DNA of 64,000 bases from Branchiostoma floridae. Taxonomy: Eukaryota; Chordata; Leptocardii; Amphioxiformes; Branchiostomatidae. The notes beneath the pieces were generated by a model. The model was not told the DNA's origin. It worked only from the letters and a program-made list of their open reading frames with translations, and did no database searches. A program made the position numbers and the translations under genes. Of the stretch, positions 6,259 through 56,700 are shown piece after piece (positions within the stretch are counted from its first letter, which is position 1; each line of letters opens with the position of its first letter). Location of the stretch: assembly GCF_000003815.2 (NCBI RefSeq), contig NC_049991.1, positions 12,896,711 to 12,960,710 of the forward strand. Reading direction: 5' to 3'.

Positions 6259-6260
6259 TA

Positions 6261-7062: not shown

Positions 7063-7064
7063 TA

Positions 7065-7642
7065 CGAGGGGCGTGCAATAAGTAATGGTCCTGACCCACT
7101 TCCAGTTGTCTGATCTAAATGAAATTTTGTATGTGTAATAATTCATATCTCTATGGGTTATGCTGCAAAAGACAGCTCTGAACTAATTGTGGTTTCTGAT
7201 TTACTGGTGTTTGAACTTAGTCAGGTGCGAAATGGACCAGGTGTGAAATGGAACCAGTTGAGTGTCGCGCAGTGATCCGGTTTTTGTATTTGAAAGGACG
7301 CACACCAAAGAAGACTTTTGATGAAATAAATGAAACTTATGGTGATGATGCCCCATCATATGACCTTGTAAAACGCTGGCATCCTGAATTCAAACGTGGC
7401 TGGAAGTCTGTGGAAACAGCTCCCAGACCTGGTCGTCCCTCTTGTGCCATTGATGAGGCATCAGTTGGAGGACCAACCTGGGGTGTCCTACAAAATCGGT
7501 GTCCAGAGCTGCATCAAACGATGGGAGAAATGCATAACTCTGGGTGATTCCTATGAAGAGAAAGACTAATAATTGTGCCAAGTTTCATTAATCTCCTGCT
7601 ATGGGAAATGGGTCAGGACCATTACTAATTGCACGCCCCTCG
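7065..7642 (+). mobile_element. mariner-derived non-autonomous element, copy 3 (578 bp, complete)
   Basis: Same length as copy 2, with TA on both sides (7063-7064, 7643-7644) and 34-bp TIRs that match at 33 positions. Scattered substitutions separate it from copies 1 and 2, so it is an older, independent insertion of the same internally deleted element. Identical length in diverged copies shows that the deletion derivative itself was mobilised. Confidence 0.92.
7248..7547 (+). pseudogene. mariner transposase remnant: N-terminal HTH fused to C-terminal tail
   Basis: The only copy whose start codon runs without a stop into the helix-turn-helix region (residues ~5-75 with KTFDEINETYGDDAPSYDLV and APRPGRPS). 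This resembles the HTH_48 domain of mariner/SETMAR-type transposases, which binds the TIR. The Asp catalytic core is absent. After residue ~75 the frame is shifted relative to the ancestral C-terminal codons and ends after 99 residues. A small DNA-binding peptide is conceivable but expression is unsupported. Confidence 0.8.
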
Positions 7643-7644
7643 TA

Positions 7645-13373: not shown

Positions 13374-14439
13374 ACCTCCCCCTTTTGTGTATAGGTGCAA
13401 AAAAAGATGTCAGAATGGTAGCGTTTATTTATAAGAAGAGGCATTGCTTTTACCAAATTAAGGGTATTTTCCGCTCAATATACCACATGCGCCGTTCAAT
13501 AAAGCAGCGGCTTCAAATGAATAGTTCCTGCTGTGTTTGCGTGTTAAGTTTAACCAAGAAAAGAAAATCTCCTCCTGTGTGAAAGCTACATATAACAGAT
13601 ACAATCTTTCCGATGTCTTTCCGTTACATTTGAGCTGACTTTACATAAAAGGGGGGAGGCTTAAGCAAACCTCCCCCTTTTATGTATAGGTGGAAAAAAG
13701 GTGTCGGAAAGGTATCGTTAATCATTAGTTGAAGAAGAGGCATTGCTTTTACCAAATTAAGAGTATTTTCCGCTCAATATACCACATGCGCCGTTCACTA
13801 AAGCAGCGGCTTCAACTGAATAGCTCCTGCTGTGTTTGCGTGTTAAGTTTAACCAAGAAAAGTAAATATCCTGTGTGAAAGCTACATATAACGGATACAA
13901 TCTTTCCGATATCTTTCCGTTACATTTGAGCTGACTTTACATAAAAGGGGGGAGGTTTAAGCAAACCTCCCCCCATTTACGTATAGGTGGAAAAAAGGTG
14001 TCGGAAAGGTAGCGTTAATCATTATTTGAAGAAGAGGCATTGCTTTTACCAAATTAAGAGTATTTTCCGCTCAATATAGTACATGCGCCGTTCACTAAAG
14101 CAGCAGCTTCAAATGGATAGCTCTTGCTGTGTTAGCGTGTTAAGTTTAACAAAGAAAAGCAAATCTCGTCCTGTGTGAAAGCTACATATAACAGATACAA
14201 TCTTTCCGATATCTTTCCGTTACATTTGAGCTGACTTTACATAAAAGGGGGGAGGTTTAAGCAAACCTCCCCCCTTTGATGTATAGGTGGGGAAAAGGTG
14301 TCGGAAAGGTATCGTTAATCATTACCTGAAGAAGAGGCATTACTTTTACCAAATTAAGAGTATTTTCCGCTCAATATACCACATGCGCCGTTCACTAAAG
14401 CAGCGGCTTCAAATGAATAGCTCCTGCTGTGTTTGTGTG
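13374..14439. repeat. Tandem array of ~298-bp monomers, left part
   Basis: Monomers are marked by GTATAGGTGG at about 13389, 13684, 13981 and 14281, a period of 294-300 bp. Each monomer ends TACATAAAAGGGGGGAGGTTT and the next begins with its reverse complement after the spacer AAGC, so every junction is a 21-bp-arm hairpin. A degraded partial unit precedes the array (~13260-13370). The last monomer is interrupted at 14439 by the block 14440-17417 and resumes at 17418. Confidence 0.9.
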
Positions 14440-27379: not shown

Positions 27380-27802
27380 ATGAAGATGATGGTTTCAAGG
27401 AGAGTAGCCAACTTCGGCGCGTTCTGCTTCGCAATTGGAACAATCTTGGCTGGTGCCTCTGTAGAAAATGGCACACTATGGAAAGAAAGGACCCTGACGC
27501 TTGCTGCGATTCTCGAGTCCGAAGAAGAAAGGATGTCTTTTCTAGAGGATGTGAGAACACAAGGTCCCATCAGAGGTAACGACATAGACACGGTGTCCAT
27601 GGTAGCGAACAGCAGTAACCCCATGGGTACCATGGTGTGGGCCTGTGACGAGGCCGTGCCCAGGAGACCGGACGCCATCCTGTTCGCTGGAGGACACGAC
27701 ATGTCTCTCCTGTCTGCCAGGTACGTCATGATGGTGGCCAAGTACCTGGACATCCCGGTCATCAGCGCCTACAGGGGCATGTCCGGCGTCGTGGCGAGAC
27801 AG
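27380..27802 (+). CDS. Gene A exon 1: signal peptide and first part of amino-terminal domain
   Basis: Codes residues 1-141 and ends in phase 0 at GAGACAG/GTAAGA. Residues 10-27 ([17 protein letters not shown]) are the signal-peptide core. The later part ([20 protein letters not shown]) corresponds to lobe 1 of the clamshell amino-terminal domain. Confidence 0.92.
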
Positions 27803-30800
27803 GTAAGATTATGTTTCACTTTATCTTTCTATCCCCAGATCAAAGTTATACAATGTATGTTAGAATAATTAGAGTTGTAAAAATGTATAATGTACTTTCT
27901 TACTAATTTATGCACGCATTTTATCACCATTCCTGTGGATATACAGCTTGCAGATATTATTTTTTGTTAATATACATTGCTGCCAAGACATGGTTGTTTG
28001 CAAATAGTGTGATATATTTGTACTCCTGTGTGTCTTGAAAATATCACATTATCTTTGTGATTGGATACTTTCTAACGCTTCATTCGTAGAACATGATTTC
28101 ATGAGGCTCATGATCAAGTACGCCGTAAATCAACTTTCTTGTACTCATTATCAATGTGGCATAAACACGTCGTTGCCATATCCAACTGCATGATATTGGG
28201 CTACTTTCAACTGGATGGAGACCGTCCAGCGACCAAACCTTGACTTTTATGACTTTATAATTGGAATATCATCCAATATGTAAAATCACGATTTTAATGA
28301 TAATAAAACACACAGACGTATAAAATACACTTCTTCAATGTTAAAATACACTTGATCAACGGTCACCGCCCGGTGGAAGGAAGCCATGTGAGCTGTACAT
28401 TGTTGATTCTCCTCCATTCACTTTCTGCTTAATCTGTAACTGTCGCACGTGCATGTTGCAATGATTTGAACTGATAACATGTCTAGAATAATGTCGTAAA
28501 AGAACCTTCACAATGGCAGACCTGAGAGAGAATAAGGATTATCTAAAAAGTTCCAAAATTGCGGTGCTTTAGAAGCCATTACACTACTGAGCCGCAAATG
28601 GAAATCTCTGAGAATGGAGCTTTCCTTAGAAAGAATGTGAATCCCTATTTTCTGTTCACTTTAAGCTTGGCATTAAAACCGACGACGCATAGGAAGGCTT
28701 TTGTGTACGTTTTACCATTTATGCTTAATCTTCCTCAACAGATACATGAATTGCTCATCTAAGTAAACTTTGAAATGCACATTGATCTCTAATGTTTGAC
28801 CCGGTTGCCAAATAAGCGCCGAAATGGGTTGTGCATTAATACTTTTGACGTTGACTGGCTGTGACCGCCAGTTGGGTTCTCCTTTTTTGACTGGCCATTA
28901 TGTCCCACAAAGATTGGATGGGATGGAAAGGAATGGAAGGTTAGACAAACCTTGCAGACCATATGGCTTTACAGGGTACCACCTTGCTATTCAAAATGTG
29001 CCTGTAATAACACAATCACACGTCATTGCAATGTATACCCAATCAAAGCGCTTAGCAAATGGGACTAAATTGCCAACGTTTGAACTCTAGTTAAGCCCCT
29101 GTTACAAATCCAGGATATTTCCCCAACCTTAGCCTTGACGGGTCTCACTTATTACCGAAAACGGCCGAAAACGAACGAAAACAACCAGAAATACTGAGGT
29201 TCGCTTATTACCAAAAACAACCGAAAACAACGTTCACTTATGACCGAAAACAACTTTGCCGTGATTATCGGAAACAACAACCGAAATCAACTTGAAACCC
29301 ACTAGCCAACTAAGGCTGTTGACAGTTTCGGAGCGGCATAAGGCGTAGGTCACATTTGCAAAACGGGCCCCGGTATAAGATAACGAAAAATTATATTGTA
29401 TACCTGGAAATATACACAAATTATGCCCATGAATCTTACGTTGACATTTTGTGCATTTTGATGTCTTTCATATCATTATTTTCCCTCCCAAAAGCTGCCC
29501 GGCAGGACCTCGGTTTAGAAATGTGACCTAAGCCTAACCAGTTTTAAGCCATGTGTATCATCCATGATGACCATGTCACAACCGTTCCGCAAGCAGCGCC
29601 GTTGACCTTTTTCCCACCAGAGCCCCGAACGCTGTTTGACCTACTTGCAATTAGCCTGGAGGCCATAGTCGACTAAGTGTGACAGGGCATTAACTTTGCC
29701 GACAAACACGGCTTCATTCATCACCATTTTCCTGAGTCGCAAATGTGTTGCAATAGTTACGCTCTGATTATGGTATCTATAGCACAATTTTACACCCTGG
29801 ATAAATGACACTGATAGATATGTTTTCTCCTTCTAAGTATAGAACTTTACGGCCATTGCTTGCATCGTCGTTATCTTGTTTGCATCAATTTTTCCTAAAT
29901 TGGACACGTAATACTTTTAAACTCACTTTTTGACTGCTAAATCCTTTATATAGCAGGGCCTATTTGTCACCTAAGATTTTTCGTGATAGGTAATTCCCCC
30001 AGGGGACGTGCGCTGAATGGCTCGGGTTGATTGCACACGTGAGGGGATTGAAAATGAGGAGACAAGAATAAGTAACGTAATGTTAATGGATCGATGTGTT
30101 AGAACATAAGCAATGAAGCTTAACCCAAGTTCTGTCACCGCCGCGTTACGGTTGATACCAGTTCTTATTGTTTTAATCAAATTGTCCCTTGCGCAATAAA
30201 CGGCAACGAAAGGGGCAATAACTTCACGTGAAGTAATATTGCAGAATGGATTTAACCGATCTAATTTCATCTCCAGGGCTGACAGATGTATACTAAAGCC
30301 GTGTATATCTTAAGAGAGGACTCCTAGTGGTATTGGATTCACATAAGCTGGGTTATCGTATTATCCAAAAGCTGTGGAGCTAATGCAACAAAATGGCCTT
30401 CTTTTTTTTGCAATAAAACTCAGAACGCGTACGGACACAGAGAAGCTACGTTTACTTAAAGAATCTCACAAGTCCTCTAGGACCAGGAAATGTAGACTTA
30501 AACAACATAATATTTCATAATTCAAAGGCAATCATGCAAAGATCATATTATAGGGCTTTGGTGGTAGCTTAGCAACAAAACACATATCAGCACTTTTTTT
30601 GAGTGCGTCACAACTGTGTATTGTATTGCCAACTTCACGTTACCGCGTACGTGGGTGTTTGTTGCATTTTGTTCTAACATTTTAGAAACCTTTGTAACGA
30701 TAAGTTACTGATTTGAAGGCTTTCTATCGGATTCGAACATCTTATGTTAAATTTCTAATGTTTCAGTTTCTAACCTGTGCCAACATAGATTCATTATTTG

Positions 30801-33800: not shown

Positions 33801-36800
33801 GTCAGTCTTTGTGTTTCATTTCAAAATGAGCTCTCCGAACATGCAATCGTACCATCATTTATAACTAGCGCTACAGTCCAGGGGCATAACAGAAAAATTG
33901 TGCAAATTTGTCTACAAGCCACAACTTTGACACTCATGTAGTTGAATGCATTCTAAGCCAGTAAGCTATACGGAAACTGCCCTATGTATCTTTGGAGGCA
34001 TGTCAGTGTATTTTGGGCTACTGTGCCCTGGCACCAAATGAATTGAATTGACCTGAATTTGAAATTGGGATGTCAAAGACATATCCCCATTGATCTCTTT
34101 TATGGATACAAATGTATCCATCCATAGCTGATCACATTAAGTCGAAATTAGGAAAACGGACCTATGCAAATTATGGCATTCTTGTTTTCAGAGCGTCTCA
34201 CAGTGGCCGAAATGCCCTCATACAAACCCCTAAGCCGACACTCTTTCACATATTTCCACCTGCCAATGTGTCTTCATCAAGAGTATTCATATGTCTTTCT
34301 CAAAATCGTGGCCAAATTCCTTAGAAACGTCGCCAACTTCAAATCAAACAAAATGTCAAGAGCGTCATATTCAAATCTTAAGTAGGGTCACCAGCCGCGC
34401 AAATGCCAATTTCATGCTCATTCTGCCTCACTAATGCGTCATTTGACGATATAACGAGTGGTCTCATTCCAGCTCATCTGCCGTAAATGCCCACAGAAGC
34501 AACATTAAACTCGGCCTATTTAGTCTCAATGGTCCTGGAATCAAGCGAATTCGTCTAGCGCCATCTCGTCTTGAGAGCGAATTAGATACGTTGGATGAGT
34601 TCAAAGACCACACACCTCCCTCTGCACATCTAAAGAGTGGTTGTTGTATGTGAAGTTCTCCTTCCCAATCAACAGACGTGTGTAGTACATATGCCCTGTT
34701 CCTTCGTAGTAAAATGCCTCATATATGACCCTTTACGTTATACTGTTGAACAAATTAACATGATAAAGACACCCAAAGGCCAATGAAAAGAAATCTACCA
34801 CTATAACAAAAAGAATAATTTTCATTTCACCAACAGGTGATGCCTGGGGTGTTGAAAACGTCTTGACGCTTGACCTGGACAGTATGGAAGAAATAGACCT
34901 GTACATGTCTCTAGCCCGGGACATCACCTCAGGTATCATCCTACTGTACTGCACCAAGCAGGAGGCAACCGTCCTCCTACCGGCCGCGGAGATAGTCGGC
35001 AAGTTTTCGGAAAACTCCGTGTGGATCGTGCCGGAGATTGTTATCGGTGATCTGGACAGCGCGCTTACAGCTCCGTACGAGTATCCAGTGGGACTGCTGG
35101 GGATAAAGTACGAGAGTCCGTCCTACAGCACGAGGAAGATGACCCTGGACGGACTGTCTGTTTACAGGACGGCCATGGAGAAGTACCTCACCAAAGGAGA
35201 CGTGTCTGAGACCTTCATGAGTGACACCTGCTGGAACTACACCTCACAGACAAAAAGCGACAGATTAACGTTTAAAGAGTGAGTTTTAGTCGTCTGTATT
35301 GTGTCAAAAAAAATAAAAGTATAAACGTTTGTGTGGTCTGTACAGAAAGCTCTGACGTAGATGGCTGAGGGATCACTCAAGACTAGGTTAACATTCTTTG
35401 AACACAGACGCCCGAGTTCAAAAACCTCAGAAGTTTCCCAACATATCCACATAGAATCAACGGGTCATTCGGTCTCACTGGACAAAGTTAAAATCTTTAA
35501 CATAGAACCAGACTTTTTCGCCAGAGGGATCAAAGAAGCCATCTACATCAGAGCTTTACAACCATCTCTGAACAGAGACGGTGGGCGCCATAGACTTCCT
35601 GCAACGTATGATTACTGCTTACCGAGTCACGTGTTCTATCTGCATAACGTGACGTCACGACAACAGTGGAATGTTCATTCCTTGACAAAGACTGGTACTA
35701 TTTAGTCAAAAATTTGGATGAGTCCAATTTTTGTGTTGGATATTACTAGTCCAATAATATCCTTTGGTATATAATCTTTATTTCTTTCAACAGTTTTCTG
35801 CAAAATGCCTCCATTCCGGAACGTGACATCAAATTCGGCGCTGATGGCTTGGTCTACAGCCCTAATTTCGCCATCCTGAACGTAGCTTCCAAGGGGACAT
35901 GGCAACGGGTAAGAATATAAAACATTCATTTTGTACTTCAGCTCCGTCATTTAATCTCCGTTTCTCACAAGCGACATCAAGTAAGGCTTAGTATGTTTCT
36001 CACGATTTCATTTCGCTTTTATTCCCAACATGCCAGGAAACGTCATTTACTGATGAGAGCGTGATTTTGTTCGCTGTATGTGGTTCCTTAGGCGATTGAA
36101 CTTAATGAACCTTAATCACTATCACTGCTACATACATTAGAGGTACCCGGGAACTCAAAGCTACTTTTATTATAAAGCATATATTACGTGTGGCAGTGTG
36201 TCAAACTTATTGCCAAATTATTACAGAGACTTTATTAGAGAGTGTAATTGAAGCCAAAACATTTTATAATATTGCTATATATATCTATGTTGGTTAACCG
36301 TGTATAATTTGAATCCTTCTACAGACGTCACTGTCGGGGTTATGTAATTGCATCATGCATTCTCTTTCATTACACAAAGTGTCCCGGAGTCACGCACCAT
36401 TATATCAGCCGTCCTTTGAGATATTGATGTTTTGGTACGAAATTAGATCTAGCACGACGGCCCTTAGCTTTATTAGACAATACAGTATTTACGTAATGTT
36501 TATAATTACTTGTAACGTACTCTGACAGTAGCTTATTTTGAATCAATTTCCACAATGAAAATTAGTCTTGTGGTTTTGGATTAATTCTAGGTGTTCTGTA
36601 ATAAGGGTGATAGAATTTGTCTACGCAGCTCGCGCATATTACTAGTATCAGTGGAGGGGGAGGGGGTGGATCTGTACATGCATGTTACGTATAATGTTAT
36701 TGTCCTGTGTGTCATGTAGTTTTGTGTACTTATGGTAAGGACTAGGGCTGGGTATCGGTACAGCGTACCGGTACAAAACCGGTTTTTCTTATTGGACCGG

Positions 36801-39800
36801 TCCAGAAAAACCGGACCTGAAAAAATTAGGTGGACCGGATGTTGGACCGATTAGAAAATTAACATATCATTTTATCAGGCATTCACACGTTTTGGCGCTT
36901 GCAGTTGGAAGAAAATGACAAGAGTGAAGTAGAGTAGAGTTTATAGTAATTTCTACCAAGTTTTACAGCCAATCGTACAGGTGCAGTTAGCGTTGTAGGA
37001 TTTTAAAACGCCAGTGTAAGTCTAATACTCCACCAGACAGATTTCTTTGTAGTGAAATGGACCATTGGTATGAGTCATACTGAATCAGGTCCAGGTTCAG
37101 GTCCGGACCTGGACCTGATCCTTTGGACCTGAACCGGACCTGGACCTGAATTTTCTGTACCGGTACCCAGCCCTAGTAAGGACCACAGACCTCAGGAAGA
37201 ATAGCTATAATGTAAATTCTCAAGCTACATGTGGCTCTCAAAAACCTCAACTCAATTTGTGATGATCTTAAAAAATTGCAGGGTGAAAAGGATGGAAAGG
37301 CGATTTTACCTTATTGCACTAAAAATGACCCTAAGCCTATGTCACACGTCCAGCCCGGATGTGTGACGTCGGCGATAGGTCAAAGGTGCTTGGAAGTCGG
37401 TATCGGCCCCCGACTCGGTACATAAAATAACTAAGCTGTGATGATTGCGGCAGGTTGGGTCCATCATCATGAACCGGATCTCCCTGAACGGGATCATCTG
37501 GCCGGGTAACTCGTACCTGGCGCCCCGCCCGGTCAATCAGCGGCACCTCAAGGTCGTCACCATCGAGGAGGAGCCGTTCGTCATGGTCACGGATCTGTCC
37601 CCCGTCACCGGGGACTGCACCAAAGCGGCGCTGCCGTGCACCAAGTTCGACTCCAATGGACAGTAAGCTCAGCCCTGTCTAGTATCTGTTTTCTAAGCCA
37701 TAAGAAATTTCTACTAGTATTCTACTACACATTACGGAAGAAATGGGTAGATTCGCCTTCCATTGCCACAGAAGAAGAGGTTAAACCAAGGAGCTTTTAT
37801 CTGATAAAAGCTCCTTGGTTAAACCTAATACAACTACCTCAAATTATATTTCAAAATGCAGTATACTGTATAGGAACATATACCGGGGGGGGGGGCTTTT
37901 GAGGCCCTCCACTTCTAAGTCCTATAACTCTAAAACGACGTGCCGTAGGGCCACCAAATTTTCAGGACATAATTTCGACATAATATCTGACAAGTATATG
38001 ACGTTTGACGTTACGTTAACGTAAGATGACGTAATTATGACGTCATCAATTTGATTACATTGGCCAAACCTATGAAAAATGGGTATTCTCAGAAAACTTC
38101 AAGTTATGGTACAAAAATGTAACAACAAGTGCAGATAACAGAATAATAATGTTTATTACTACTTGCGTTGCCAATAGCAACATCAATGACGTCAATATGA
38201 CGTCATAAAATGACGTCATGCACATCTAACTTACGAGTTGGGCTCCGCCATATTATATCCACCACCTTGAATTTTTAAAAATACTTTTTTTGCAACAAAT
38301 AATCACAAAGGGCAATGGAAATTGACTAAATTCATTCATTTAGATGGTTTTTGATGAAAAAATACCAGGTAGTTACAAATTTTAAGGGATAATTAGCTTG
38401 TTATTATTGATCTGGCCATTCGGTCCGCCATCTTGGATGTTGGGCTGATGACGTCATCTAATTAGCATAATTTATGCAGATATAATTATGAAAGATATGC
38501 TGAATAATACAAGATTTTATTTATGTAACAAAATCGCAGTAATATAGCAAATAAATGTGAAAAATACATAGTTAGAACCAAAAATAGTGATTTTTGGCAA
38601 AACTGCCTGTCAACAAACGGTTGCCATGGCAACAAGAAAAAATGGAAAATTTGTCAAACTTCGTAAAATTGTTGCCAACAATATTTTAAGAAAACTCATT
38701 AAATTTGGTGGCTCTAGCGTAAGACTAAAGTTACTTTGTATTTCCAGGAGAGAAGATAAGTGCTGTGCTGGTTTCTGTATGGACCTGCTGGAGCAGCTGA
38801 AGGATGACGCATGGTTCACGGTGGAGATTTACGTGGTGGCGGACGGGCGGCACGGGACGGTACAGAGCGGGAACTGGAACGGCATCATCGGTGACCTCAT
38901 CAACGGGACAGCGGACATGGCAGTAGGTCGGTATTAGCCTCCATAGCAGGCTCTCTGGGTACTTTTTCGTCTTTTCTTTGGCTCATAATACACTTTTTTT
39001 CTGGCCAGTTATTTTTGTACTGGGTCACTTGTACTGCCGGCCCGTAGTACGGACCTACAGTACAAAAAGAGATGGCCAGCAAAATGTATTATGAGCCAAA
39101 CAAAAGACGAAAAAAAGGCCCAGATGAACTGCTATGGAGGGTAGACCGGTATGGGGATTAAAAGCCTTCATACTGCATCAAAATATCACAATCTATCATT
39201 ACGTTTCCTAGTTTTTAAAAACAGAACCTTGCTTTGTGTCTCTAATGTGTTGAAACTTGTTCTCCTGTCTTCATAGCCTCTGTGGGTTATTATTGACAAT
39301 GGTAAACTCCTCATTCATATCGGCCCTACATGTACGTACAGCATCGGCTATATGAGTAACCGGTGCTTCCGTCCTATAAAGGAGAGACACGCTTACCAAG
39401 ATCAATGCCTCATTCAAAATCCGGTCAGGTTTATACTATGATGTTCCATATTCTCAGTCAGCGACACCATCTAATACCTTTCATCAGCCTCGCGTACTTT
39501 ATGTCAGTCACATATTATTGGCTCCTACCAAAGCTATGAAGATTATTGCAACATCTGTTATTTTCCCGCAGGGTCTCTTACGATCACAGAGGAACGTCTG
39601 GAGGCGGTTGACTTCTCCGTACCTTTTATTGAGACAGGCTTAAAGGTGATGGTAGCGAAGAAGAAGGGAGTTGTGTCACCGTCAGCCTTTCTTGGTAGGT
39701 CAAGGGGCACATACTGTATGATACAGAGATATCTCAAGTTCCCCGTGCCTTTTATTAAAGTGGGTGTCTCTCTGAAGCTGTTGTACGTAGGCGGCTTCAC

Positions 39801-42800
39801 TTAGTACTTCGGAGCGATTTGTCAGAGCGCTCAGCGAGTTTTACCGATAAATAACACGAATTACTTTACGCTCTGTGTGTTTTTTTGTCAAGTCATATGA
39901 CTTGTGTACGTTTCCCATGGAATTTCCATTACAAAGTAAAGGATTCCGCAGCCTCGGTGAGATGCCATTGATAGTTTTAAAGTAGTATTCAATTCAAATA
40001 TCAATGTAACAACTTCACAACCTACACAATGGAAAGGTTTCCCACAAATGGTATGACTCCTACTCTCTTGTGTTGGTCGTCAGAACCATACGACGCCACG
40101 CTATGGATCATCATATCCGTGCTCATTATCAACGTCATCACGTGTGCGCTGTGGCTCTTCGAGAAACTGCGACCTGGTCAAGCCGGATATCCACAGAAAG
40201 GTGAGGATCTGCAATATTCATTTTGTCACATGGCAAAGTCCTGAATGAATCACGAAAGCTTGTGATCTTTAGATTGACATAAAAACCTTTGAGAGACACC
40301 ATATTAAACGTACGTGGCTTAGATATACATGATATTAGACATGAAAGGGAGCTCAGATAGATGTGATTTTACCACTCTCTAATCATACACATCTGGTACA
40401 TGTCATTACAGTGAACTGTACTCTTTTAAATATACACATGTACATGCCTTTCTCTAATGTTATAGAAGAAGATATATTCTTTTCTATTTTGTTTCCAGTA
40501 ATGTCAGCGTCAGACCAACCAGCACGCTGGTTATTGAACCCTTTTCAAATGAAACGTGTCCGTTCAAACAGTGGTTAACTTGCCTGAATTGCCCACCAGA
40601 TCCATCGAAGAGGTTTGCTCCATTCCACGCGTTCTGGCTGCTGTGGACGCTCCTGTTCAACAACACCATGCCGCTCATCCGCGTTCCCAAGGGCCTGGCG
40701 TCCAAGTTCATGGTCTGTGTGTGGGCCATGTTCTCAACCATCTTCATAGCCTCGTACACAGCCAACCTGGCGGCCTTCATGATCCAGGAACAAGTCAGTG
40801 AGAAGATCACGGGACTGACGGATCCGAGAGTGAGTTTTAGCCTCATTTCAGCATTGAGGTGACTCGGAACGTACCTTCAAGCTGTCTAACAAATAGTAAC
40901 GCATGTTAGTAGGTTGCAAAACGCTTGCAGTTTGCTTAATCGTTTCCCTGTAATTGTCTACGCTACGCCTACTATGTCTACTCCTGTATACGCATATGAA
41001 ATGCATTCATTCAACAGATGTTCTATAGCTTAAAGCGCTGACTTTTCATTTACTTTTGAAGGCAATTAGATAAGTACATAACTTTGCAGTTTTCATGTTC
41101 AGCACGTTGTGCCTTACTCTGCCCTGATCTGATGTAGAAATAAGAGTCACGTCTGTTCATCTACGTTGTCCCAGATCCATATAAAACATGCAAACAAATG
41201 GGAAGGCGCCGCTGATAGTAAGTGTGATGTATAGCACCTACCACATGAAACCTTCAGGAGGTCTCCTATTACTCCCAGACTCACTTTTCTGATCGATTCT
41301 GAACGCCACACGACCTTTATAAGCCGTTTCAAAAACCCATTTAGTTTGCTGATGTCCTGCGGCTACGTTAGGTTTTAGCAATAACCTTTATGATGGCAAC
41401 CGCAGTAGATCACTGTGTGCCGGGGAACGTTAAACCGCGCATGATGCACGACTGGTGCAAAAGTAGCCTGCCCCGTGTAATTGGTAGGAGAGACCCGACA
41501 CTGTTTCTATGAAGTACTGTGATGATTTGTTGCACGCGCTCCGACCCCGGTCACAAGCTGGCTATAAATTCTATTAATGTGGCTGATGATTGAACTTTCC
41601 TTGTCTTGTCTTGCGGGTTGCCTCAGCATCCAAGGTTACCGCAAAGGTGAACCAAATAGATTAATGCCTAGTGTTTTCTTGATGAAATTACTAGCACTTT
41701 GAAGGTTCAGCTTTTGTGATACTGTTTTAGATTTCCTGGGTAGAAGAATGTCCTTGCTTGCAAAGGCGTTTATATTAACCTCTGCTACTTGCGTTTTGGT
41801 AGAATTGGATTTCGGATGAGGGAGTTAGAGATTTAAACCCCGGCTTTACTGTTGAAATATCAACTCCGAACCAGCGGTGATTGGAGACTAATGTTGTTAT
41901 CCTCCGGCAGGAGTTCACCCCGTATATCATGGCTTTAGAGTACGCGCTACGACTGAAACAGGTTTAATCCCCCTGATATTGGAGTATAGGAAGTACATTT
42001 CCCACGCTACAACTTGGCAAACGAAGTGTCGAAACCTTTGCCCTTGCCCTAAAGGACACCTTGACTATGTAACCCGAAACTCTGTGCAATGTCATCACTC
42101 TCCAACTGTAGCTTCTGATACTGACTGCTGGGTCTAGGATTTCTGGATAAAATATACACCATTTCTCACTCTAAAATGTCAGACTATCAACCATCTGATA
42201 TTGTTGTTGACACTTTTGGTACAGAGGTCATGTGCCTGGTTAAACATATACCATGAATATGACAATAACATTTTCCCTCGGCGCTTGAGACTCGCATCTA
42301 TATGTACGCTAACCTACCTCGCTGAAATATTGCATCCCGTTAATAATAATAATTGTGATAATTATCATAATACATAGTTGAGCATGATACTCCTGTCAGT
42401 ATTAAACACACATGATACTTTCCCCCAGTTCCAACGTCCAGAGGAGTTTCAGCCGTCCTTCAAGTTCGGAAGTGTGGTGGGGACCAGTATGGAGATGAAA
42501 ATCCGTGACAACTACCCGCGCATGTACAGCTACATGCAGAAGTTCAACACCAGGTCTGCCAAGGAGGCCGTAGAAGCTCTTAAGAAAGGGTAAAAAAAAA
42601 CATTTCTACGAAATCATAATTTTGAGAACACTGAATTCCAATTACGTCTGATTAAATTATGAAAGCCGCTCTTAAAATGGTGTCGAAAGTGATGAATGTG
42701 TTATTGAAGCACCCCACTGTTTGAAGAAATGCTAATCATCGTGATAACCTTAGTTGAACAGTTCCTCTAGCGATGCATACACACACTGCAGCCAAACTTG

Positions 42801-45800
42801 ACGGTTGATAGCACACTAGTACTATCACATATACTCCTTGCATATACATAGAGTTTGACGACACCGGCATACTTATCATTTTATGAAGATGATCGTAAAT
42901 ATCATTTCTGTAAGATAACAATTGATGTTGCTTTGATAATTTTCACCCCAGGGAACTGGACAGTTTTATCTACGACGCTGTAGTGCTGGAGTACCTGGCC
43001 GGGAAGGACGATGGCTGTAACCTGGTGACTGTCGGGAACGTTTTCGCCTCCACTGGATACGGGGTGGCGTTTCCCAAAGGTTCTCCGTGGAAGAACACAA
43101 TCGACGTACTCATCCTATCCTACAACGATCATGGTACGTTTCGTCCTGTTATAGGTATATGTCAAATACATGTGAAGAAAACACTATCATATGATGATCT
43201 TATTTGCTCCTACTCTATTACAATAAGTTCTAACGTAACACTCACTTAGGGAACTACACGTTGAAGAATATTGGGCTGGACACCGATTTAAAGTACACTT
43301 ATAGTAGCTTACTGTAACATACGTCATGAAACATGGATACATTTAGAATTCCACAAATGACTGTTGTTTTTGTTTCCCCCCAGGGTACTTGGACATGTTT
43401 AAGAGTCAGTGGGTGGAGGGACTCTGCAGCAGGAAACAGGAGCTGGAGAAGAACACCCATCGCCTCGCCATCGAGAACTGCTCAGGTTGGGAGTCAACAA
43501 GTTTATCAGTGTCCACCTGTATATATAACGTTATACATATAAAACGAATGATGACATATTGTCAAATGGCTTTTTTTAAGGACTTTAAGGAACCACAAGT
43601 TCAAATTCAGCGGAAGATACATTTTTCACAGTGGTAATGGATCCATTTGCTCATTCACTCTGTATGCACATCATGCATTAATCTTTTACTAAATGTATTT
43701 CCCTGGTGCAATAATATTATCGTTCGTGACAAAATATTAATTGGTAAACAAAACACTGTTAACTTAGAAAACAATAGAGGAGATCTTTTCCTTTCCATAA
43801 CGACTGTTTTCAGCACATGTTGTTTTCTTCAGGAGTCTTCATCCTGCTCCTTGCTGCCATCGCGCTCAGCCTGGTTATCTTCTGTCTGGAGCACGTGGTG
43901 CACAAGTACCTGGTGTTCATCGGCAAGTGGCCCATGCTGTCAGACAGCGACATCCCGCCGTCTCCTGTGTACGAGAACGTAGCGGTACGAATCTACAGGG
44001 GCTTTCGCACAGTTTAATTTTGTGCGGTTATAAATGCTTTTGAAGCCAACTGCGTATAGATTTACTAATACAAAGTATATATGTTGAGCCTAATCTTAAA
44101 GCAGATTCTACGGTGGCATAAGATTCTGATACATTGTAGTATCAAAAGCTGACAGGGGAGTGAAGCCGGCCTATAGGAGTATGCATTGGCTACCGGAGTC
44201 AATGTAAACTCCTAGGCCGACTTCACTCCTCTATCAACATCTTATGCTACCGTAGGATCTGCTTGGATGATTATCCGTGGATGAAAGTTTCCTAGAACAC
44301 AGCTTTAGTAATTTGCCTAGGTTGACAAAGAGCTTTCGATGAAAGCTCAATAGTTTGACAGACATTGTAATTTGTTGGTAATATCTATCTTGATCCGCTG
44401 TTGTTGGACAATCATGAGACTCGTCGTCACACTACGCCCTTTGTACCCGAAAGTTACACTAGCTGCTGAGTCATGTTATGATTTGAAGAAAATACTTCTA
44501 TCCTGCAGGGCACCGGTAGCCTCCGGATAAACGGCGCAGAACGGGTGGTGGTGACGGAGCACAAGTTCGTCCATGCCGTAGACACGTTAGATGATGAATG
44601 TCCCGGATGTCAGGTAGCCCAGGAACAGATCCATGCTCTGACGTCACAGGTGCGGAAGGCCTTCACACGGCTGGAGGAGCTCGAGGGGGACACGGGGACA
44701 AGCAGGTATACAGTAACATAGCGTGCATTCTTTCAGGCCTTAGTTGGAAAGGCCACACTAGGTTGACTTTACAGATGACAACCACGCATACATCGTTTGG
44801 ACCGTTTAAAAACATTCAAGATGGAAATTCTTTCTTTCGTGGACAAAGACATATAGCTCGCCAGAGCCTCATCCGTAGTGCCTTTCGCGACCATCGGGCG
44901 AAATATCGTCAAAACGTCCGTCAAGTTACCAGAATCGGTCTTTTTTTGGATTGGGAAATCGTAATGGGGGTTCGATATAGGCTGCTTTAACATGAGTTTT
45001 CAAAGTATAAACATTTTGTCAAGAATGACAATGTAAAAGACCTCCCAAAAAACGAAACAATTGGATATCTGGTCAAAGATATATGCTACCTTGGGGATCT
45101 ACATCCTTGCGTAGTTTCCAAAGGGCTACCAAATCTAAATGCCAATCCTTACTTGTGAAACTAGATACTTTGGAAATGAATGCGATTTTCTTTTCAAAAT
45201 GCTGTTAAGTGAGCTTTCCTCAGATGATAGTTAAGACTTTGTTAAAGACTTATATGACCCAACATTAAAGTCTAGATTTTCTTTTTGTCCGCACTACGTC
45301 TAATCCTGTACTAGTTAAGTGTTTGATTGTGAAATAAGGTATTGAAATGGGAAAAAAGGATTGAAATCCGTTTGTCAGTCTATTTTTCTCATCTTGGTGA
45401 GACTATGGCAATTGGACGGTCTTGTTGTACAATCTCCTCCCAGCGGTCAGAAACGGTACTGCAGGTTAAGCTCCAAAGGATAATGCAATTCTGACATTTT
45501 TAATCAAAACTGTGTTACGATAGGAACGTTTGATATAATAGAAGATATGTTTGACAAGACCTTATGTTTATGAGTTTCCCTGGTCGGAACTACTTTAAGT
45601 AGTGCAAATGTTGAATAATGCTTGCGATGTGTTATCACAGGGAGGTGATTCCCGAAGTTTTAAATGTTCAGAAACTTTTAAACGAAGACGTCCCAGCCAG
45701 AGTAGCGGAGCCACCTGGCGCCCTGATGTCCCTTCATGACGTGGTGCAACAACTGACGGGCGGTGGCGATGGGACAGAAGACGAGGGGACTAGTACTTCT

Positions 45801-45884
45801 CACACATCCGGGAACACAAGCCGAGCTAGTTCCTCTGGTAGCGCCTCCTCTCCGGAAACTGCCGAGCATGCTAATGAGGACTGA
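27380..45884 (+). CDS. GRIN2-like: Gene A: GluN2-like NMDA glutamate receptor subunit, complete, 15 coding exons
   Basis: Ligand-gated cation channel subunit of the plasma membrane. Exons: 27380-27802, 33628-33796, 34837-35278, 35794-35908, 37454-37662, 38748-38926, 39572-39694, 40084-40200, 40600-40829, 42429-42589, 42952-43133, 43384-43485, 43833-43984, 44509-44705, 45641-45884. Frame is continuous across all GT-AG junctions (3,045 nt, 1,014 residues). Order: signal peptide (~1-27), amino-terminal domain (to ~383), S1 (~384-555), M1 (~560-580), pore loop with FNN (612-614), M3 with SYTANLAAF (644-652), S2 (~670-815), M4 (~819-837), C-tail. Glutamate-site residues H488, S514, T516, R521, S689, Y730 and D731 match GluN2, but the Thr of GluN2A position 690 is Met. 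Paired LBD cysteines are present. An in-frame TAG six bases before the ATG and A at -3 support the start. It lacks a PDZ-type C-terminus. Family assignment is firm; ligand is inferred. Confidence 0.95.
27803..33627 (+). other. Gene A intron 1 (5.8 kb)
   Basis: Largest intron of the gene. It contains a minisatellite-like run of ACCGAAAAC-type units (~29150-29290) and a GC-tipped MITE (29339-29536). No exon recognised within it. Confidence 0.75.
29339..29536. mobile_element. MITE family M2, copy 1 (in gene A intron 1)
   Basis: Ends are inverted: TAGGTCACATTTGCAAAACG on the left, AAATGTGACCTAAGCC on the right, each followed inward by GC-rich GGGCCCCGG / GCCCGGCAGG. The AT-rich core contains ATACACAAATTATGCCC, shared with 61035-61245. 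Family also at 54658-54847. Confidence 0.75.
33628..33796 (+). CDS. Gene A exon 2: amino-terminal domain
   Basis: Residues 142-198 ([17 protein letters not shown]…), phase 0 to phase 1, acceptor GGTAACAG, donor GAGG/GTCAGT. Matches the GluN2 segment that follows the first lobe strand (…PSIEQQASVM…). Confidence 0.9.
34837..35278 (+). CDS. Gene A exon 3: amino-terminal domain, second lobe
   Basis: Residues 198-345. Contains [12 protein letters not shown] and [10 protein letters not shown], diagnostic of GluN2 amino-terminal domains ([11 protein letters not shown] and WIVPSLVAGD in mammals), and the Cys/Trp pair SDTCWN. Donor AAAGA/GTGAGT, phase 2. Confidence 0.95.
35361..35705 (+). pseudogene. 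Penelope-like element remnant: GIY-YIG endonuclease C-terminal part
   Basis: The + frame reads [20 protein letters not shown], then a His/Gly segment (HIHIESTGH) and [20 protein letters not shown] followed by RLPATYD. The EHRRPSS…SLNRDGG…LP pattern is typical of the GIY-YIG nuclease at the end of Penelope-like retroelement ORFs. The GIY-YIG strands and the reverse transcriptase upstream are absent, so it is a 5'-truncated copy within gene A intron 3. Confidence 0.8.
35794..35908 (+). CDS. Gene A exon 4: end of amino-terminal domain
   Basis: Residues 345-383. The sequence [20 protein letters not shown] matches the last strand of the GluN2 amino-terminal domain (F-x-x-DG…P…ILN). Donor CAACGG/GTAAGA, phase 0. 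Confidence 0.92.
36743..37175. mobile_element. hAT-type MITE with 8-bp target duplication (433 bp)
   Basis: Flanked by the perfect direct repeat GTAAGGAC (36735-36742 and 37176-37183), the 8-bp duplication typical of hAT insertions. The 19-bp tips TAGGGCTGGGTATCGGTAC and TAGGGCTGGGTACCGGTAC (right end reversed) differ at one base. The interior is built from GGACCGG/CCGGTCC-type short repeats. Lies in gene A intron 4. No transposase. Confidence 0.93.
37454..37662 (+). CDS. Gene A exon 5: start of ligand-binding lobe S1
   Basis: Residues 384-453. [10 protein letters not shown]…[12 protein letters not shown] corresponds to the start of S1 in GluN2, including two conserved cysteines. Acceptor GATTGCGGCAG, donor GGACA/GTAAGC, phase 2. 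Homologous to gene B 60454-60644 with identical phases. Confidence 0.93.
37778..37826. repeat. 24-bp-arm palindrome in gene A intron 5
   Basis: AGGTTAAACCAAGGAGC…GCTCCTTGGTTAAACCT with a single mismatch between arms and almost no loop. Confidence 0.8.
38038..38456. promoter_or_regulatory. Cluster of five CRE palindromes TGACGTCA
   Basis: Exact TGACGTCA occurs at 38038-38045, 38187-38194, 38198-38205, 38211-38218 and 38449-38456. A YY1-like GCCATCTTGG lies at 38427-38436. Binding by CREB/ATF proteins is plausible from the consensus only. The cluster may be a property of the repeat family rather than of the receptor gene. Confidence 0.55.
38621..38634. promoter_or_regulatory. Perfect palindromic X-box (RFX site)
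   Basis: GTTGCCATGGCAAC fits the RFX consensus GTNRCC-N(0-3)-RGYAAC on both halves. It is in gene A intron 5, 113 bp before exon 6. Function is inferred from sequence alone. Confidence 0.5.
38748..38926 (+). CDS. Gene A exon 6: S1 core
   Basis: Residues 453-513. [14 protein letters not shown] is the GluN-typical CC-x-GFC motif; ADGRHG contributes H488, the GluN2-type histidine (Phe in GluN1). Donor GCAGTAG/GTCGGT, phase 1. Gene B has no intron here. Confidence 0.95.
38938..39140. mobile_element. 203-bp MITE starting 11 bp after gene A exon 6
   Basis: CCTCCATAGCAG at the left and CTGCTATGGAGG at the right are perfect inverted tips. Complementarity continues inward (CTTTGGCTCATAATACA / TGTATTATGAGCC; GACGAAAAA). 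No coding capacity. Confidence 0.88.
39572..39694 (+). CDS. Gene A exon 7: S1 glutamate-contact loop
   Basis: Residues 513-554. SLTITEER supplies S514, T516 and R521, the alpha-carboxyl/amino contacts conserved in GluN subunits, followed by [15 protein letters not shown] and SPSAFL. Donor CTTG/GTAGGT, phase 1. Confidence 0.95.
40084..40200 (+). CDS. Gene A exon 8: transmembrane segment M1
   Basis: Residues 554-593. EPYDATLW leads into M1 ([20 protein letters not shown]). Donor CAGAAAG/GTGAGG, phase 1. Confidence 0.93.
40600..40829 (+). CDS. Gene A exon 9: pore loop and M3
   Basis: Residues 593-669. [14 protein letters not shown] is the M2 re-entrant loop with Asn at the selectivity filter; [14 protein letters not shown] is the M3 gating motif. 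I chose the acceptor at 40598-40599 (TTGCCCACCAG) because it restores frame with exon 8 and gives the usual GluN2 M1-M2 linker length. The stronger-looking acceptor at 40497-40499 runs into a stop. Confidence 0.88.
42429..42589 (+). CDS. Gene A exon 10: S2, gamma-carboxyl contact region
   Basis: Residues 670-723. [19 protein letters not shown] aligns to GluN2A FGTVPNGSTERNIRNNY: the Ser is kept and the adjacent Thr is Met690. Phase 0 to phase 2, donor AAAGG/GTAAAA. Confidence 0.93.
42952..43133 (+). CDS. Gene A exon 11: S2 core
   Basis: Residues 723-784. [15 protein letters not shown] carries Y730 and D731, the latter binding the ligand amino group in all GluN subunits. [15 protein letters not shown] is the conserved S2 strand. 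Donor CATG/GTACGT, phase 1. Confidence 0.95.
43384..43485 (+). CDS. Gene A exon 12: end of S2
   Basis: Residues 784-818. QWVEGLCSR supplies the second cysteine of the S2 disulfide; IENCSG leads into M4. Donor TCAG/GTTGGG, phase 1. This intron is absent from gene B. Confidence 0.9.
43833..43984 (+). CDS. Gene A exon 13: M4 and start of C-tail
   Basis: Residues 818-868. [20 protein letters not shown] is M4, followed by HVVHKYL. Ends phase 0 (GTAGCG/GTACGA), the same position and phase as the last intron of gene B. Confidence 0.93.
44098..44264. mobile_element. 167-bp inverted-repeat element in gene A intron 13
   Basis: AAGCAGATTCTACGGTGGCA… at the left pairs with …TGCTACCGTAGGATCTGCTT at the right. 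Inner arms also pair (GGGGAGTGAAGCCGGCCTA / TAGGCCGACTTCACTCC). MITE-like, with no coding capacity. Confidence 0.8.
44509..44705 (+). CDS. Gene A exon 14: cytoplasmic C-tail
   Basis: Residues 869-934. Includes a likely coiled-coil stretch ([20 protein letters not shown] then EELEG) with heptad-like hydrophobics. Donor AGCAG/GTATAC, phase 2. No database motif recognised. Confidence 0.85.
45641..45884 (+). CDS. Gene A exon 15: C-terminal end
   Basis: Residues 934-1014 and TGA. The last half is low-complexity Ser/Thr/Gly/Glu ([20 protein letters not shown]). Ends HANED, which is not a PDZ ligand. Confidence 0.85.
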
Positions 45885-50726: not shown

Positions 50727-53700
50727 CTGTGGGAGAAATAACAGGAATATTGTAATAATGACGTTCCCACTGGAGAAGAGGAGCAACCCACTTGATCTTT
50801 AAATGGCGGAATATTAGATATCTCTGAGGACTACGTACCCTGCTAACGATTGCCAATAGTTCTTTCTTGTCGAATTCACACCGCCTCAGTGGCTCCCGTA
50901 AGCACCTGTAGAAGAAGTGCTCTAGAAACAGGATGACGATGCTGAGGACTATGGCGGCCAGGAGGAGGTAGAACACTCCAGCGGTGTTCTCTATGCCGAG
51001 CGGGTGGGTGTCCAGATCAGACGACGCCTGGTTGCACGATCCTGTCAGCCACAGTTCGTGCAGCTCTTCCAGTTTACCTGCATGGACGAGCAATGGGGTA
51101 TGCTGCCAGTTAGCGAGCGCCTGGAGGAAATCACATAGTTTACAGCACATATTATGCAGACAATGCGGCACCTTGCGAGAAGTAGAGATGGGAATAGATG
51201 TAGATAACGTATATTGAAGACTACAGTTAACTCTATTACCGGAGACTCTAATGTTTACCGAGTAGGTCGTTGTATATATGGGGTGAAATATCTATTCCTT
51301 TCTGTAATGTTTTTGAGACAAGGAATTCTCGCAAGATGAACCCGCAAGGGCTGAAGACGGTTTGAAGTCTGCAACACACAAGCGCTGAACAAGACAGGCT
51401 CCATGATTTGTCGATGCGTGTCAACTCGATACATTGCGACATATTACTTCATGTGAACAACAGTGCAGGTCAAACATAAAGTCACAAGGATCGGTATTGT
51501 GAGGTCCTTGGTCTGCGGGTAAACAGTCGTTACAGTGGAATAGAAGTCATGAAGTTAACATCAATTCCAACCTCATCGTTACCAGGATCACCCCACGTGC
51601 TTTAGGACTCTGGGCCCAGCTCATTTTGGCCTCACAACTGCGTGCTGCCGGGTATCCCATCAACATTATTCGGACACCGCCACTTTATCTATGCACAAGA
51701 GGTAGTGTATTCATAGTGCCGTGGGCGTCTACTGATATTTCCCGGCCTTCAGCGCTACAGATTAAATCTACTTAATTGTGGTTTCTTGTTGCCGATCGTG
51801 TTTATCTGGCCATCTAAAAATGTATCCAGAACCAAAATGAGTCAAGTTGTCTTTGCTGAAACTTTTATGGTTAGAGATGATCTAGAAAAGTGATGTGGCC
51901 CGAGAAATGAACAGGATGTGAAGCAGTGCGCAACCCTGGTAACGGGGCTGGCACAGACCATGAGTAAGCATCACACAGTGGACAGGGTTGTCGAAAAAAT
52001 ACACTTTGCTCTCTTTCTAGACCGGGGAGTGCAAAAAAATACCGACACGTTTTGCTCCATGAAAAAAAAAAGTGAAAAAATGTTGGGAAAAATGACTTGA
52101 AGGGGGACAGCACGAGACGGACATCCGCATAAAAGTAGAAAACACAAGCCGTACTCGCTAGGTACCACGGGGGTTTTGGAAGTGGTGAGGTGTCACAAAC
52201 CCCAGAAAGCCACTTTGTATGAAGATCTTCTATAAAATCTGTGGGTAAAAACAATAAAATCCGTAAGATAGTCTCCAAAACCTTTCCTTGGAGTACACAT
52301 CTTACGTAAAAATTCACTCAAGGTAACAATACAAGTGTCGCTCCAAGGATTAAATTCGAAAATGCCGTTGAGATTACTGACACAGCATTCGGGACGATAG
52401 CAGAAAAATAACACATAGCGTATCACACACAAAACGTTCTCTGTAAAGAAGAAATTTGGTTTGAAGAGAAAATCGAATATAATATATATTTCTGTGTTCG
52501 TTAATATGACTGTTGTAGTGCAAAATCCATTCCATAGAATTGTGCCATTCACTAGAATCATACTGTTGCGAACGTTGTCTTTCTATAATATTCACTGAAT
52601 GAATTTGTAAAACCTTAAAAGCGCACGAATAAGAAAAAAGACACAATAATACATTAAAATATCATTCAAATCACCCGAATAGAAACAGGCCTCTCTTAGG
52701 GCGAACGATGAAACTGCAAGACGTGAAATATCTTAATATACGAGTTATGCTTTTTCTTGCCTTGGAATTGTGTCGCAAACTAATAACGGTACATTTCAAA
52801 ATATGAAGCCATTTCGAACGACGTGTATCTTGTTGCACACGGAATGAAAACGACAATTTGCAAGGGACTCGGTGTGTTCAACTGCAGCGCCTGACACGGT
52901 ATCAACATAAATACCGTGTCCTATGAGTTAGTATGCTTATTTCCTTATGTCACGGCATAAGGTAACTTTACACAAGACTAACCAATTAGTAGATTCTCGA
53001 CAGATCATTTTGCACGGCTCACTTCACCCTGCTGAGAGGGTGCTTTCTCGCGTCTTCATCTTCTACTTAATGGTTGCAGCATAATTTAGGGCACAATGAA
53101 GCGGTATATAAAGTGAACGCCTTATTTGCTATGTGGGTCAAAGACCGTGGTGTATTTGCCTTCACTGAAATCGAAACAGACTCTTCAGATATTGATATTC
53201 CGTGGATATGCTCTGATAACATCATTCAATCCATTCTGCATGTGTCAAGGTTTGGAGGCGAGTTTCCCTGCTTGTGAATTTATACTTTCATGCAGAAAAT
53301 AAAGACACATCTTTTTGTAAAAGAAGATGGAATGCAACAGTATGTAGCAAATCAGTTCTCAGAGGTGTAACAGTTATATAGTGAACCGATGACTTGGTAT
53401 CAGAAAAAATCTTTCGTATTGTGAGGTATCCCGTTTCTATGTAAAGGTAATATGAAAATGTTTCTTCATACAATCATCAAGAGGATATCTGCTGAGACGT
53501 GGCAATCTTCGAAAGAAGATAGAGTCTCTCTGACCGAGTTAGCACACAGTGTTATTTCTCCGTCTTTAAAGTGTTGATTATGAACAGTCGTGTTTGCTGA
53601 AAATTCTCACTGAAAAAGATAACCGTGATACGCCATATCAACTGTGAAAAGCACACCGTACCCAAGAAGCCTGCAGCTGAGTGGGTGACGCGTATGCGGC

Positions 53701-56700
53701 AGCAGGAAAATGACTCGAAATGAAATGGCCTCTTATTGATTATTCATCTGATGATGAAAATGGGGCGAGAAAATTGTACCTATGATGCTTCTCAGCGCTA
53801 TTGACAAGCCAGTCCGTTTAGTACCTGAAAATCTAGTTCGATGGAGACTCGCAACAACTACTGGCCTTTATTGGGAATGACAAAACTGCCTTATGTTGAA
53901 AACACTAACTTCAATATTTGCAACATCATCACATATGTCTATTGGTAATGGATTTCATATGTACCCGTAACAGACCTTACCATTCGCAAAATACGAAAGG
54001 AGAGCGAGGTCGATATCGTCGACCCACTCCGAGTTCTTGGGAAAGCCTATACCGTAGCCGGTGGTGGCGAACACATTGCCGTGCGCGATGGTTCGGAGTT
54101 GACAGCCTTCGTCCTTCCCCGCTTCGTAGTTCAGCACGGCGGCATCGTAGATGAAGGCGTCCAGGGTGCTGCTTGTACATATGGACATAGATAAAGGGCA
54201 TGACCACACTGAACAAGAATATCATTCATTACATCTTTGATTTTTGTCTAAAGCCCCGGTAATGCTTTGGTCACATTTGGAGGGCCCTGCCGGGCAGTTT
54301 GTGCACTTTCGGGTGTGACCCATACGTGGTATATGCGGCTACCGGGCTATTTTGGGGCCCGGTCGGGCCACGGATTTTTATAAATTAATTCAGGGCCCGG
54401 CGACAAATAGATGTTGTGACCGCTAGAACACTAACAGTTACCCCCGCGTTATGCAGCAGTCCACCGGGACAAATTTGCGTCTCCGGAGCCTAGCCGAGGC
54501 TACACCTCCGACGTGGGAATTGTAACTGAAGCATCTCACAGAGCCGCCCCTCCCCCACACCAGCCAACTAAGGTTTTCGGCAATGACTACTATCTTTTAA
54601 CGCCAACCATGTCCTAGTTATGACACTACCACTTCCTAACCAGTACCAGTAAATGACTTAGGCTTACGTCGCATTTCCAAACCTGGGCCTGTCGGGTAGC
54701 GTTCGGGAAAGAAAAGTATGATATACAAGATAAGAAACTACACAAGGGCATTACCTGATTGTATATATTTTTACGAATACATTTCTTTTTCTCGTTTCCA
54801 CAAACAGCCCGGCCAGGCCCCTGTTTGGAAATGTGACGCTAGCTTCACTCCTGACCGAGCCCTGAGTGCTTCTAACCTACTCTCAACCATCCCGACCTCT
54901 AGCCGTAAGCTGACGAGTCCCTCCCGGCTGATTATCAACAGATTGTTACCCCTCTCACGAGCAAATTGACATAATCAGGAATATTAAAAAAAGAGGTAAC
55001 TTTTGTTTTCATCAAAGTGATTCTATGTTCTTCTATGGTTCTTCTTTTTTTAGGTCGCGTGTTGGTTTGCTGACTTCGCTCACAAGTAGTATGTGACTTC
55101 CATAAACCAGCGGAACATCGCTTCACATTACCATTACTTTCCGCTTGCTCTAAAGAATTTGCTACTCTCTGTTCGATAGATAAATTCAACTACATTCTGG
55201 GAGGCGATAACCCTCAATGTGTACAAGAAGGCAAATATATCCACGAATGTTTATACCGTAGAACTAATAGTGTTAATGACATGCTAGACCCTATATGTTG
55301 ATTTATTCATACCTATAGATATCCATATATGTGTGTTTAGTTGTACTGTAAGTAGTTGTTATACATGTAGACCTTACGAAAGTCGCTGTACTGTTGTCGT
55401 GTCAATAAAGATTGTATTTACCTGCATCATATGTGTATTTTGTTTACTTTACGTGTTTTATTTATCATTCTACTCCATTTTTATACAGGATGGAGGAAGC
55501 ACCAAAATACCCGATGGTTCATGATAATAATTGTACATCACTAAACATAGATAATGTGCAGCACTCACCCTCCCTTTAGGGCTGTTATTGCGGCATTGAC
55601 GCTCGGTTGGTTGTACCTATTCATGTACTCGTGCATTCTCCTGAAATTCTTGGCAATAAAAGCTTCGGTACTGCCGTTGGGTTTCGTTCCGAACCTGAAT
55701 GAGTGGGCGTACGGATTGCTGAACTGTAAAGAGAGAAAAAATCATCAAATTAATACTTACGCCTGCAGAAATAGGATAGCAAAGAAGTAATAAAATGCAA
55801 ATAGCTATCACACTCATTACGACAGTATTGCAATTGTATTATCCGCAAAATTTAGTAGCAGATTTTAATTTAATGAAGTGTCATCATGGGGTTCATCAGA
55901 TTATGGCTACTGTCTTGGAAGAAACTATCAACTTAATTGTATGAGGAAATTTCCCCTGTACTGATGATTGGTCCTCCATTGTGCTACCCCTTGGTTCTCA
56001 TCGACTTAAAACTCACCCACAAAAAATCGAAACAGCAAATTGAGAAGTTTTAGTCGCAGGAAGATATATATATATATGTCTTAACTTCTTCTAGATTTCA
56101 ACTCACCTCATACAGAGATGAACCTAATATGATACTGATGGCATTACTTTCTGAGTCATCCTTATAGATGACTGTGAGAAACTATATGGACATCACGTCC
56201 AACATTGCGAGGTGTAAACGCAAGTAGGCGGAGAAGATTTATCTCCGTTCTGATACATCCCGGCGGCCATGGACGAGCTGTGACGTCAATGGCGGGATGA
56301 AGTGTTCGCAGGTTAATCCTGACCCCGACACTGTTATTATTTTGATGTTCAGTCTGATTTCCGTTAATGTCCCGGCGTTACCCCAAGGCACGCTCGATTT
56401 TCTATTTGTCATTCTAGGCAGATGAACTCTCATAAACAGAGTTGGTGGGTATAATTTGATTGGATAAGATTACGACGTCTTCAGTGCTTTATATCGAATT
56501 TTTGCTAAAGAATTAAGACCTTTATTGCATTATTTTGCCACACCGGGCTAAGTACAGGTCACAACAAGACATGTTGAAGAAAAACATTTAACAGATACAG
56601 GATAAAACTAACGTTGGATAAAAGAACAGATATGCTTTATGTTTTTTTCCGGTTTCAATATGTACTTTGTGGCAGCTGATCTTAAGTCTTGTAACTTCAT

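Follow-up and report, generated by a model that had tools for sequence, protein, structure and literature searches.

GluN2 subunits are taken as the glutamate sensors of NMDA receptors. The residues that set the ligand have been condensed into a short code, in which glutamate sites carry G, S or T at position 653, T at 655 and Y at 732, and glycine/D-serine sites carry S at 653, a hydrophobic residue (V, L, A, I or P) at 655 and F at 732 (PMC12226733). In a placozoan receptor, the substitutions S653G and I655T, joined by F732Y in the triple mutant, turned a glycine response into a glutamate response (PMC12226733). A similar ligand rule, put to 122 proteins from newly described groups, allowed a confident prediction in 72 of them; the same paper names GluN3A as a glycine binder, and the parts of its text consulted, figures and supplements aside, make no statement about the amphioxus GluN2 ligand site (PMC6307864). 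Ten iGluR genes have been reported in B. belcheri (PMC5225553). Among the open-access papers listed in literature searches, no title or abstract dealt with a GluN2-class subunit that naturally lacks the threonine of GluN2A T690.

This threonine is named among the glutamate hydrogen bonds (PMC12577679). In human GluN2A, T690A shifts the glutamate EC50 from 6.1 to 5254 uM, about 860-fold, and the patient variant T690M, which reaches about 41% surface expression, gives zero current even when 10 mM glutamate is applied (PMC12199545). Poor surface delivery may be part of this null current. The result bears out the statement of an earlier note on the DNA analysed here that substitution of the residue strongly reduces glutamate potency. 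The double change R518K + T690I renders the GluN2A agonist domain incapable of binding glutamate (PMC9983021). At the neighbouring glycine, GluN2B-G689S and G689C have EC50 values of 2.8 and 1.7 mM against 0.8 uM, about 2000-fold or more, and in mixed receptors values of 368 and 761 uM, being dominant-negative on potency (PMC11127902). GluN2B G689 corresponds to the glycine that is replaced by threonine in the amphioxus gene described below as gene A.

GluN2-class genes of Branchiostoma floridae

The window, that is the whole stretch of 64,000 bases analysed (C13:12896711-12960710), contains two GluN2-class NMDA-receptor genes that converge tail to tail, A being encoded by the + strand and B by the - strand. 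Gene A spans about 27.4-45.9 kb of the window. Ten of its exons, running from where S1 begins through to the tail, were joined; all introns are GT-AG and a single frame is open, the other two frames of the spliced reading holding 21 and 15 stops, and the gene looks intact. These + strand exons encode, successively, the ATD end and S1 start with the E413 equivalent (37454..37662), the part of S1 with the H485 equivalent (38748..38926), the part of S1 with the S511, T513 and R518 equivalents (39572..39694), M1 (40084..40200), the pore loop and M3, in which FNN and SYTANLAAF are kept (40600..40829), the first part of S2 (42429..42589), the part of S2 with the Y730, D731 and Y761 equivalents (42952..43133), the S2 end (43384..43485), M4 (43833..43984) and the cytoplasmic tail (44509..44705). 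A probable last exon with the stop codon (45641..45884, +) is placed by the fit of its acceptor and phase only; if it is correct, the tail is short compared with that of GluN2 subunits. Upstream, an ATD exon with approximate boundaries (34790..35285, +) matches a GluN2B ATD chain in the PDB search (E 2e-17) and, below threshold, ANF_receptor in Pfam (E 0.006). A possible first coding exon for the signal peptide and ATD start (27380..27865, +, boundaries approximate) was picked by eye; it had no Pfam match, and its PDB search returned no GluN chain among two unrelated weak matches (best E 6.7e-5). The unspliced Pfam scan gave no fitting match for the ATD. The GluN2-class architecture thus read comprises S1, M1-M4, S2, the pore NN, SYTANLAAF and an ATD identified through one exon matched to the PDB.

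Gene B (50791..60644, -) was read over seven exons from S1 to M4, the 50791 end being a chosen cut and not a splice site; it is of GluN2 class, with the canonical NGSTE and all 11 of 11 contact positions kept. Gene C, the third GluN2-class gene, lies about 5 kb beyond the upstream edge of the window, on the + strand (L010, C13:12886711-12896710, at 1548-5324), and has the motif SST together with H485F and T513K; N gaps at 2638-3130 and 6148-10000 of this region hide other exons. The fourth, gene D, is found on the minus strand of the same contig, 10.8 Mb away (L072, C13:2108573-2118572, at 9797-2455). It keeps GST, carries H485F, has GG in place of the pore asparagines, and its gating motif is SYTAKLTAF. 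The assembly searched (513,431,437 bases, 431 contigs) accordingly holds at least four GluN2-class genes, a lower bound drawn from 87 Pfam matches, through 8 loci given and 40 short regions fetched (one repeating such a locus), and from an S2-M4 genome search with gene A as query, in which the best candidates only were scored. The genome further holds a GluN1 with SSV on C19, one GluN3 with SSP on C15 and a second GluN3-like stretch (L074) that was left out of the trees. The GluN1 stretch around GFGIGMRKDSPW has more than 10 matches in about 3 kb (L075, C19:16584906-16594905, at 622-3448), representing either tandem partial GluN1 copies or an assembly artefact.

Several repeats were observed towards the start of the window. 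Positions 1-2475 and 3597-about 6070 are near-identical direct copies, 3596 bases apart (99-100% in 200-base steps to 2400), which probably reflect an assembly duplication; a 790-base N gap (2476-3265) lies within this region. A Mos1-type transposase HTH domain (PF17906, E 1.3e-10) is encoded at 7221-7544 (+), and the 300-base stretches at 2082 and 5678 are repeats of the stretch at 7062-7361. A tandem array with a 300-base unit (3.6 copies, 91% matches) occupies 13374-14439.

Class and relationships of gene A

The best 60 of the 365 PDB matches to gene A are all GluN2 chains. Its identity to GluN2A is 48.9% over 427 S1-M4 columns, with GluN1 and GluN3A at about 35%, and the likeness to GluN2 extends to the FNN pore and the contact positions. 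Compared to GluN2 subunits (GRIN2A-D), gene A has TSM for GST, a loop before Y761 that is two residues shorter, a shorter loop 1 and a shorter M1-M2 loop. Right after the pore asparagines, it also has one extra residue and an Arg (PLIRVPKG against PVQNPKG; 40600-40829, +). GluN1 and GluN3 share with gene A a hydroxyl at 688, a non-polar residue at 690 (SSV, SSA, SSP) and the same shorter loop before Y761; however, they are unlike it in overall sequence, in the pore, at 730 (W or M) and at 485 (F or Y).

The main tree comprised ten sequences over S1-M4 (LG+F+G4, support given as SH-aLRT/UFBoot); genes C and D, like the GluN1 and GluN3 of this genome, were entered in pieces. The GluN2 class stands apart from GluN1 and GluN3 at 99.1/97, and gene A is assigned to it on its sequence. 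A position of gene A within GluN3 was rejected in the ten-sequence constrained tree (AU 0.013), and the W or M of GluN1/GluN3 at 730 is absent. In smaller trees without either C or D, the grouping of A with GluN3A was not rejected (AU 0.062 and 0.051); with C included and D still left out, A/C with GluN3A was rejected (AU 0.019).

Within the class, gene B joins GluN2A/2B (92.9/84), and A groups with C (62.6/62), the two falling, with modest support, outside D, B and GluN2A/2B (88.2/77). An origin of A and B as sister duplicates is disfavoured (AU 0.032 for the ligand domain, 0.012 for S1-M4 and 0.017 for ten sequences). A lineage-specific expansion of the four amphioxus genes is weakly rejected (AU 0.041), two fixed arrangements of it giving 0.013 and 0.004. 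Neither a group of A, B and C (AU 0.067) nor a tree in which A, but not C, falls among B, D and GluN2A/2B (AU 0.417) was rejected. An old A/C lineage is therefore regarded as a lead rather than a result, because, apart from amphioxus, the trees contain vertebrates only and their branches are long.

The TSM motif and the ligand pocket

The motif at the place of GluN2A G688-S689-T690 lies at 42483..42491 (+), in the exon of the first part of S2, and is formed by the codons ACC (42483-42485), AGT (42486-42488) and ATG (42489-42491), that is Thr-Ser-Met. The earlier note had reported this methionine, ending the motif one base short. Alignment with GluN2A (VPNGSTE), GluN1 (VKQSSVD) and GluN3A (VRESSAE) runs without gaps between the FRFG motif and E691 and sets M on T690; it also places in that column the hydrophobic Val of GluN1 (SSV) to which the note had pointed. 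Ten of the 11 contact positions compared, which were taken from PMC12199545, are kept, T690 being the sole difference. The residues retained are the equivalents of E413, H485, S511, T513, R518, S689, E691, Y730, D731 and Y761. E691 acts via water, and reports differ on the role of D731 in glutamate contact (PMC12199545). The alignment agrees with the previous description of the other named contacts and Tyr730 as GluN2-like, for which the proper GluN2A numbers are H485, S511, T513, R518, Y730 and D731, the four S1 numbers having been set 3 too high.

Beside T690M, gene A carries G688T, P686V and N687G, the first of these being a second motif change that had escaped the earlier observation. The glutamate side-chain site G-S-T is thus T-S-M here, four base changes away from the gene B codons GGC AGT ACC. 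The changes grouped at 686-690 do not stand out on their own, since 73 of the 228 columns identical in B, GluN2A and GluN2B differ in gene A. Two of the three motif residues differ, and judged from the published mutants, changes at both places are severe in mammals. Human GluN2A-T690M has the same residue at the same place and arose de novo in a patient (PMC6856296); there it is a lone, disease-associated change on a GST background, whereas in gene A it is natural and combined with G688T.

T690 is kept in genes B, C and D (GST in B and D, SST in C). In the four GluN1/GluN3 sequences compared (two PDB chains and two of this genome), Ser at 688 is followed by V, A or P at 690, and the Thr/Met pair of gene A resembles this Ser/non-polar pair more closely than the Gly/Thr pair of glutamate sites. 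The residues at E413, H485, Y730 and Y761 stay glutamate-type, the corresponding GluN1 residues being Q, F, W and F; GluN3A, too, has Y at 761. In terms of the ligand code, gene A has T, M and Y at 653, 655 and 732 and matches neither published list. It departs from the glutamate list at 655 (GluN2A T690), with Met and not Thr, and from the glycine list through Thr at 653, Met (hydrophobic, but unlisted) at 655 and Tyr at 732.

A search of the two flanking introns for an alternative GST exon, using the GluN2A, gene A and gene B versions, revealed none, with nothing matching better than E 0.6. No second genomic copy of the gene A S2-M4 region was present among the 31 genome matches; the four at 85% identity or more are its own exons, and the next best reaches 60%.

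The earlier note had read gene A as a GluN2-like gene that lost its threonine and may have altered ligand choice. The class is upheld, and so, on stronger grounds than the note had, is the view that a normal glutamate receptor is improbable, since the very substitution T690M has been tested in human GluN2A and G688 is changed as well. A loss cannot be taken as proven: in the best tree, gene A falls outside the GST-bearing GluN2 genes, and no direction of change at 690 is claimed because the GluN1/GluN3 outgroups carry V, A or P.

Possible ligands of gene A

Gene A probably does not encode a subunit that responds to micromolar glutamate. The region of the pocket receiving the side-chain carboxylate would be dismantled, with Met replacing T690, which is a hydroxyl donor in GluN2A, and Thr replacing G688; the residues gripping the backbone of any amino acid (S511, T513, R518, S689, D731) are kept, as is the channel. 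The mutants of mammalian subunits suggest that, without the hydroxyl and the space by which the carboxylate of glutamate is held, micromolar glutamate would not activate the subunit. The smaller, less polar pocket would take a small neutral amino acid, such as glycine, D-serine or alanine, and the subunit would pair with GluN1. To this reading as a whole, a GluN2-class subunit with a disassembled glutamate side-chain site, a small neutral ligand and GluN1 as partner, we assign a probability of about 0.42. The altered ligand (glycine, D-serine or other) proposed before is plausible. The tyrosine at 732 is no bar to glycine, because Y is found there in the PDB GluN3A and in the GluN3 of this genome, and Y at 761 does not exclude it, since the glycine binder GluN3A has Y at that place. 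Against a small neutral ligand stand the glutamate-type residues retained at E413, H485, Y730 and Y761, the Met, outside the published glycine list, and the Thr at 653, which is listed for glutamate sites. Mammalian single mutants may also be a poor guide to a pocket that evolved as a whole, and the ligand readings draw on the sequence of one genome.

The chief alternative is that the subunit is silent and lowers potency within mixed receptors. Gene A would be an agonist-insensitive regulator that assembles with GluN1 plus a glutamate-type GluN2, either B or D, and lowers glutamate sensitivity, a built-in dominant negative. GluN2B-G689S and G689C behave in this manner in mixed receptors (PMC11127902), the pore and gating motifs of gene A are kept, and the GST-bearing B and D are present in the same genome. 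However, S511, T513, R518, S689 and D731 are all kept as well, which would be needless in a silent pocket, and we consider such a regulator rather unlikely.

The small-ligand reading can be widened to gene C. A and C would then form a separate GluN2-class lineage, older than the split between the GluN2A/2B line and gene B and with no known vertebrate counterpart, whose pockets departed from the glutamate design; gene A with GluN1 would be an excitatory glycine, D-serine or alanine receptor on a GluN2 body. This joint proposal is doubtful, the more so because the constrained trees back the old split less firmly than the unconstrained tree by itself.

That gene A still binds glutamate usefully, through the backbone of residue 690, Y730 and H485, with compensation by K487T, N687G and the shorter loop before Y761, is improbable. 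It would fit the retention of E413, H485, Y730 and Y761 and the Thr at 653, allowed in glutamate sites (PMC12226733), but human GluN2A T690M and the GluN2B G689 variants are each severe alone (PMC12199545, PMC11127902), and T690 is retained by B, C and D. An assembly or sequencing error, a rare allele or a dead gene is very improbable: the window assembly does have gaps and a near-identical duplication, and the exons, read from the genome alone, leave parts of the ATD and two end exons unsettled, but the motif needs four base changes relative to gene B, so that one sequencing error, the objection foreseen in the earlier note, cannot account for it. The ten GT-AG exons share one open frame with many stops in the others, and the neighbouring gene C is also without Gly688.

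A comparable case is that of the placozoan epsilon receptors GluE1-alpha-A and GluE1-alpha-B, which, like the genes considered here, are close paralogues in one genome with ligands predicted to differ by the same code (PMC12226733). They are of another class, and the ligand of GluE1-alpha-A has been measured.

Gene A may sense another amino acid or serve as a silent regulator, and it bears on whether GluN2-type subunits of every lineage need glutamate. A natural, intact-looking GluN2-class gene with T690M, beside a neighbour with a normal site, offers a convenient way to test how small a set of residues determines the ligand. If the A/C reading is true, glycine-type sensing would have arisen once more among NMDA subunits, in addition to its occurrence in GluN1 and GluN3.
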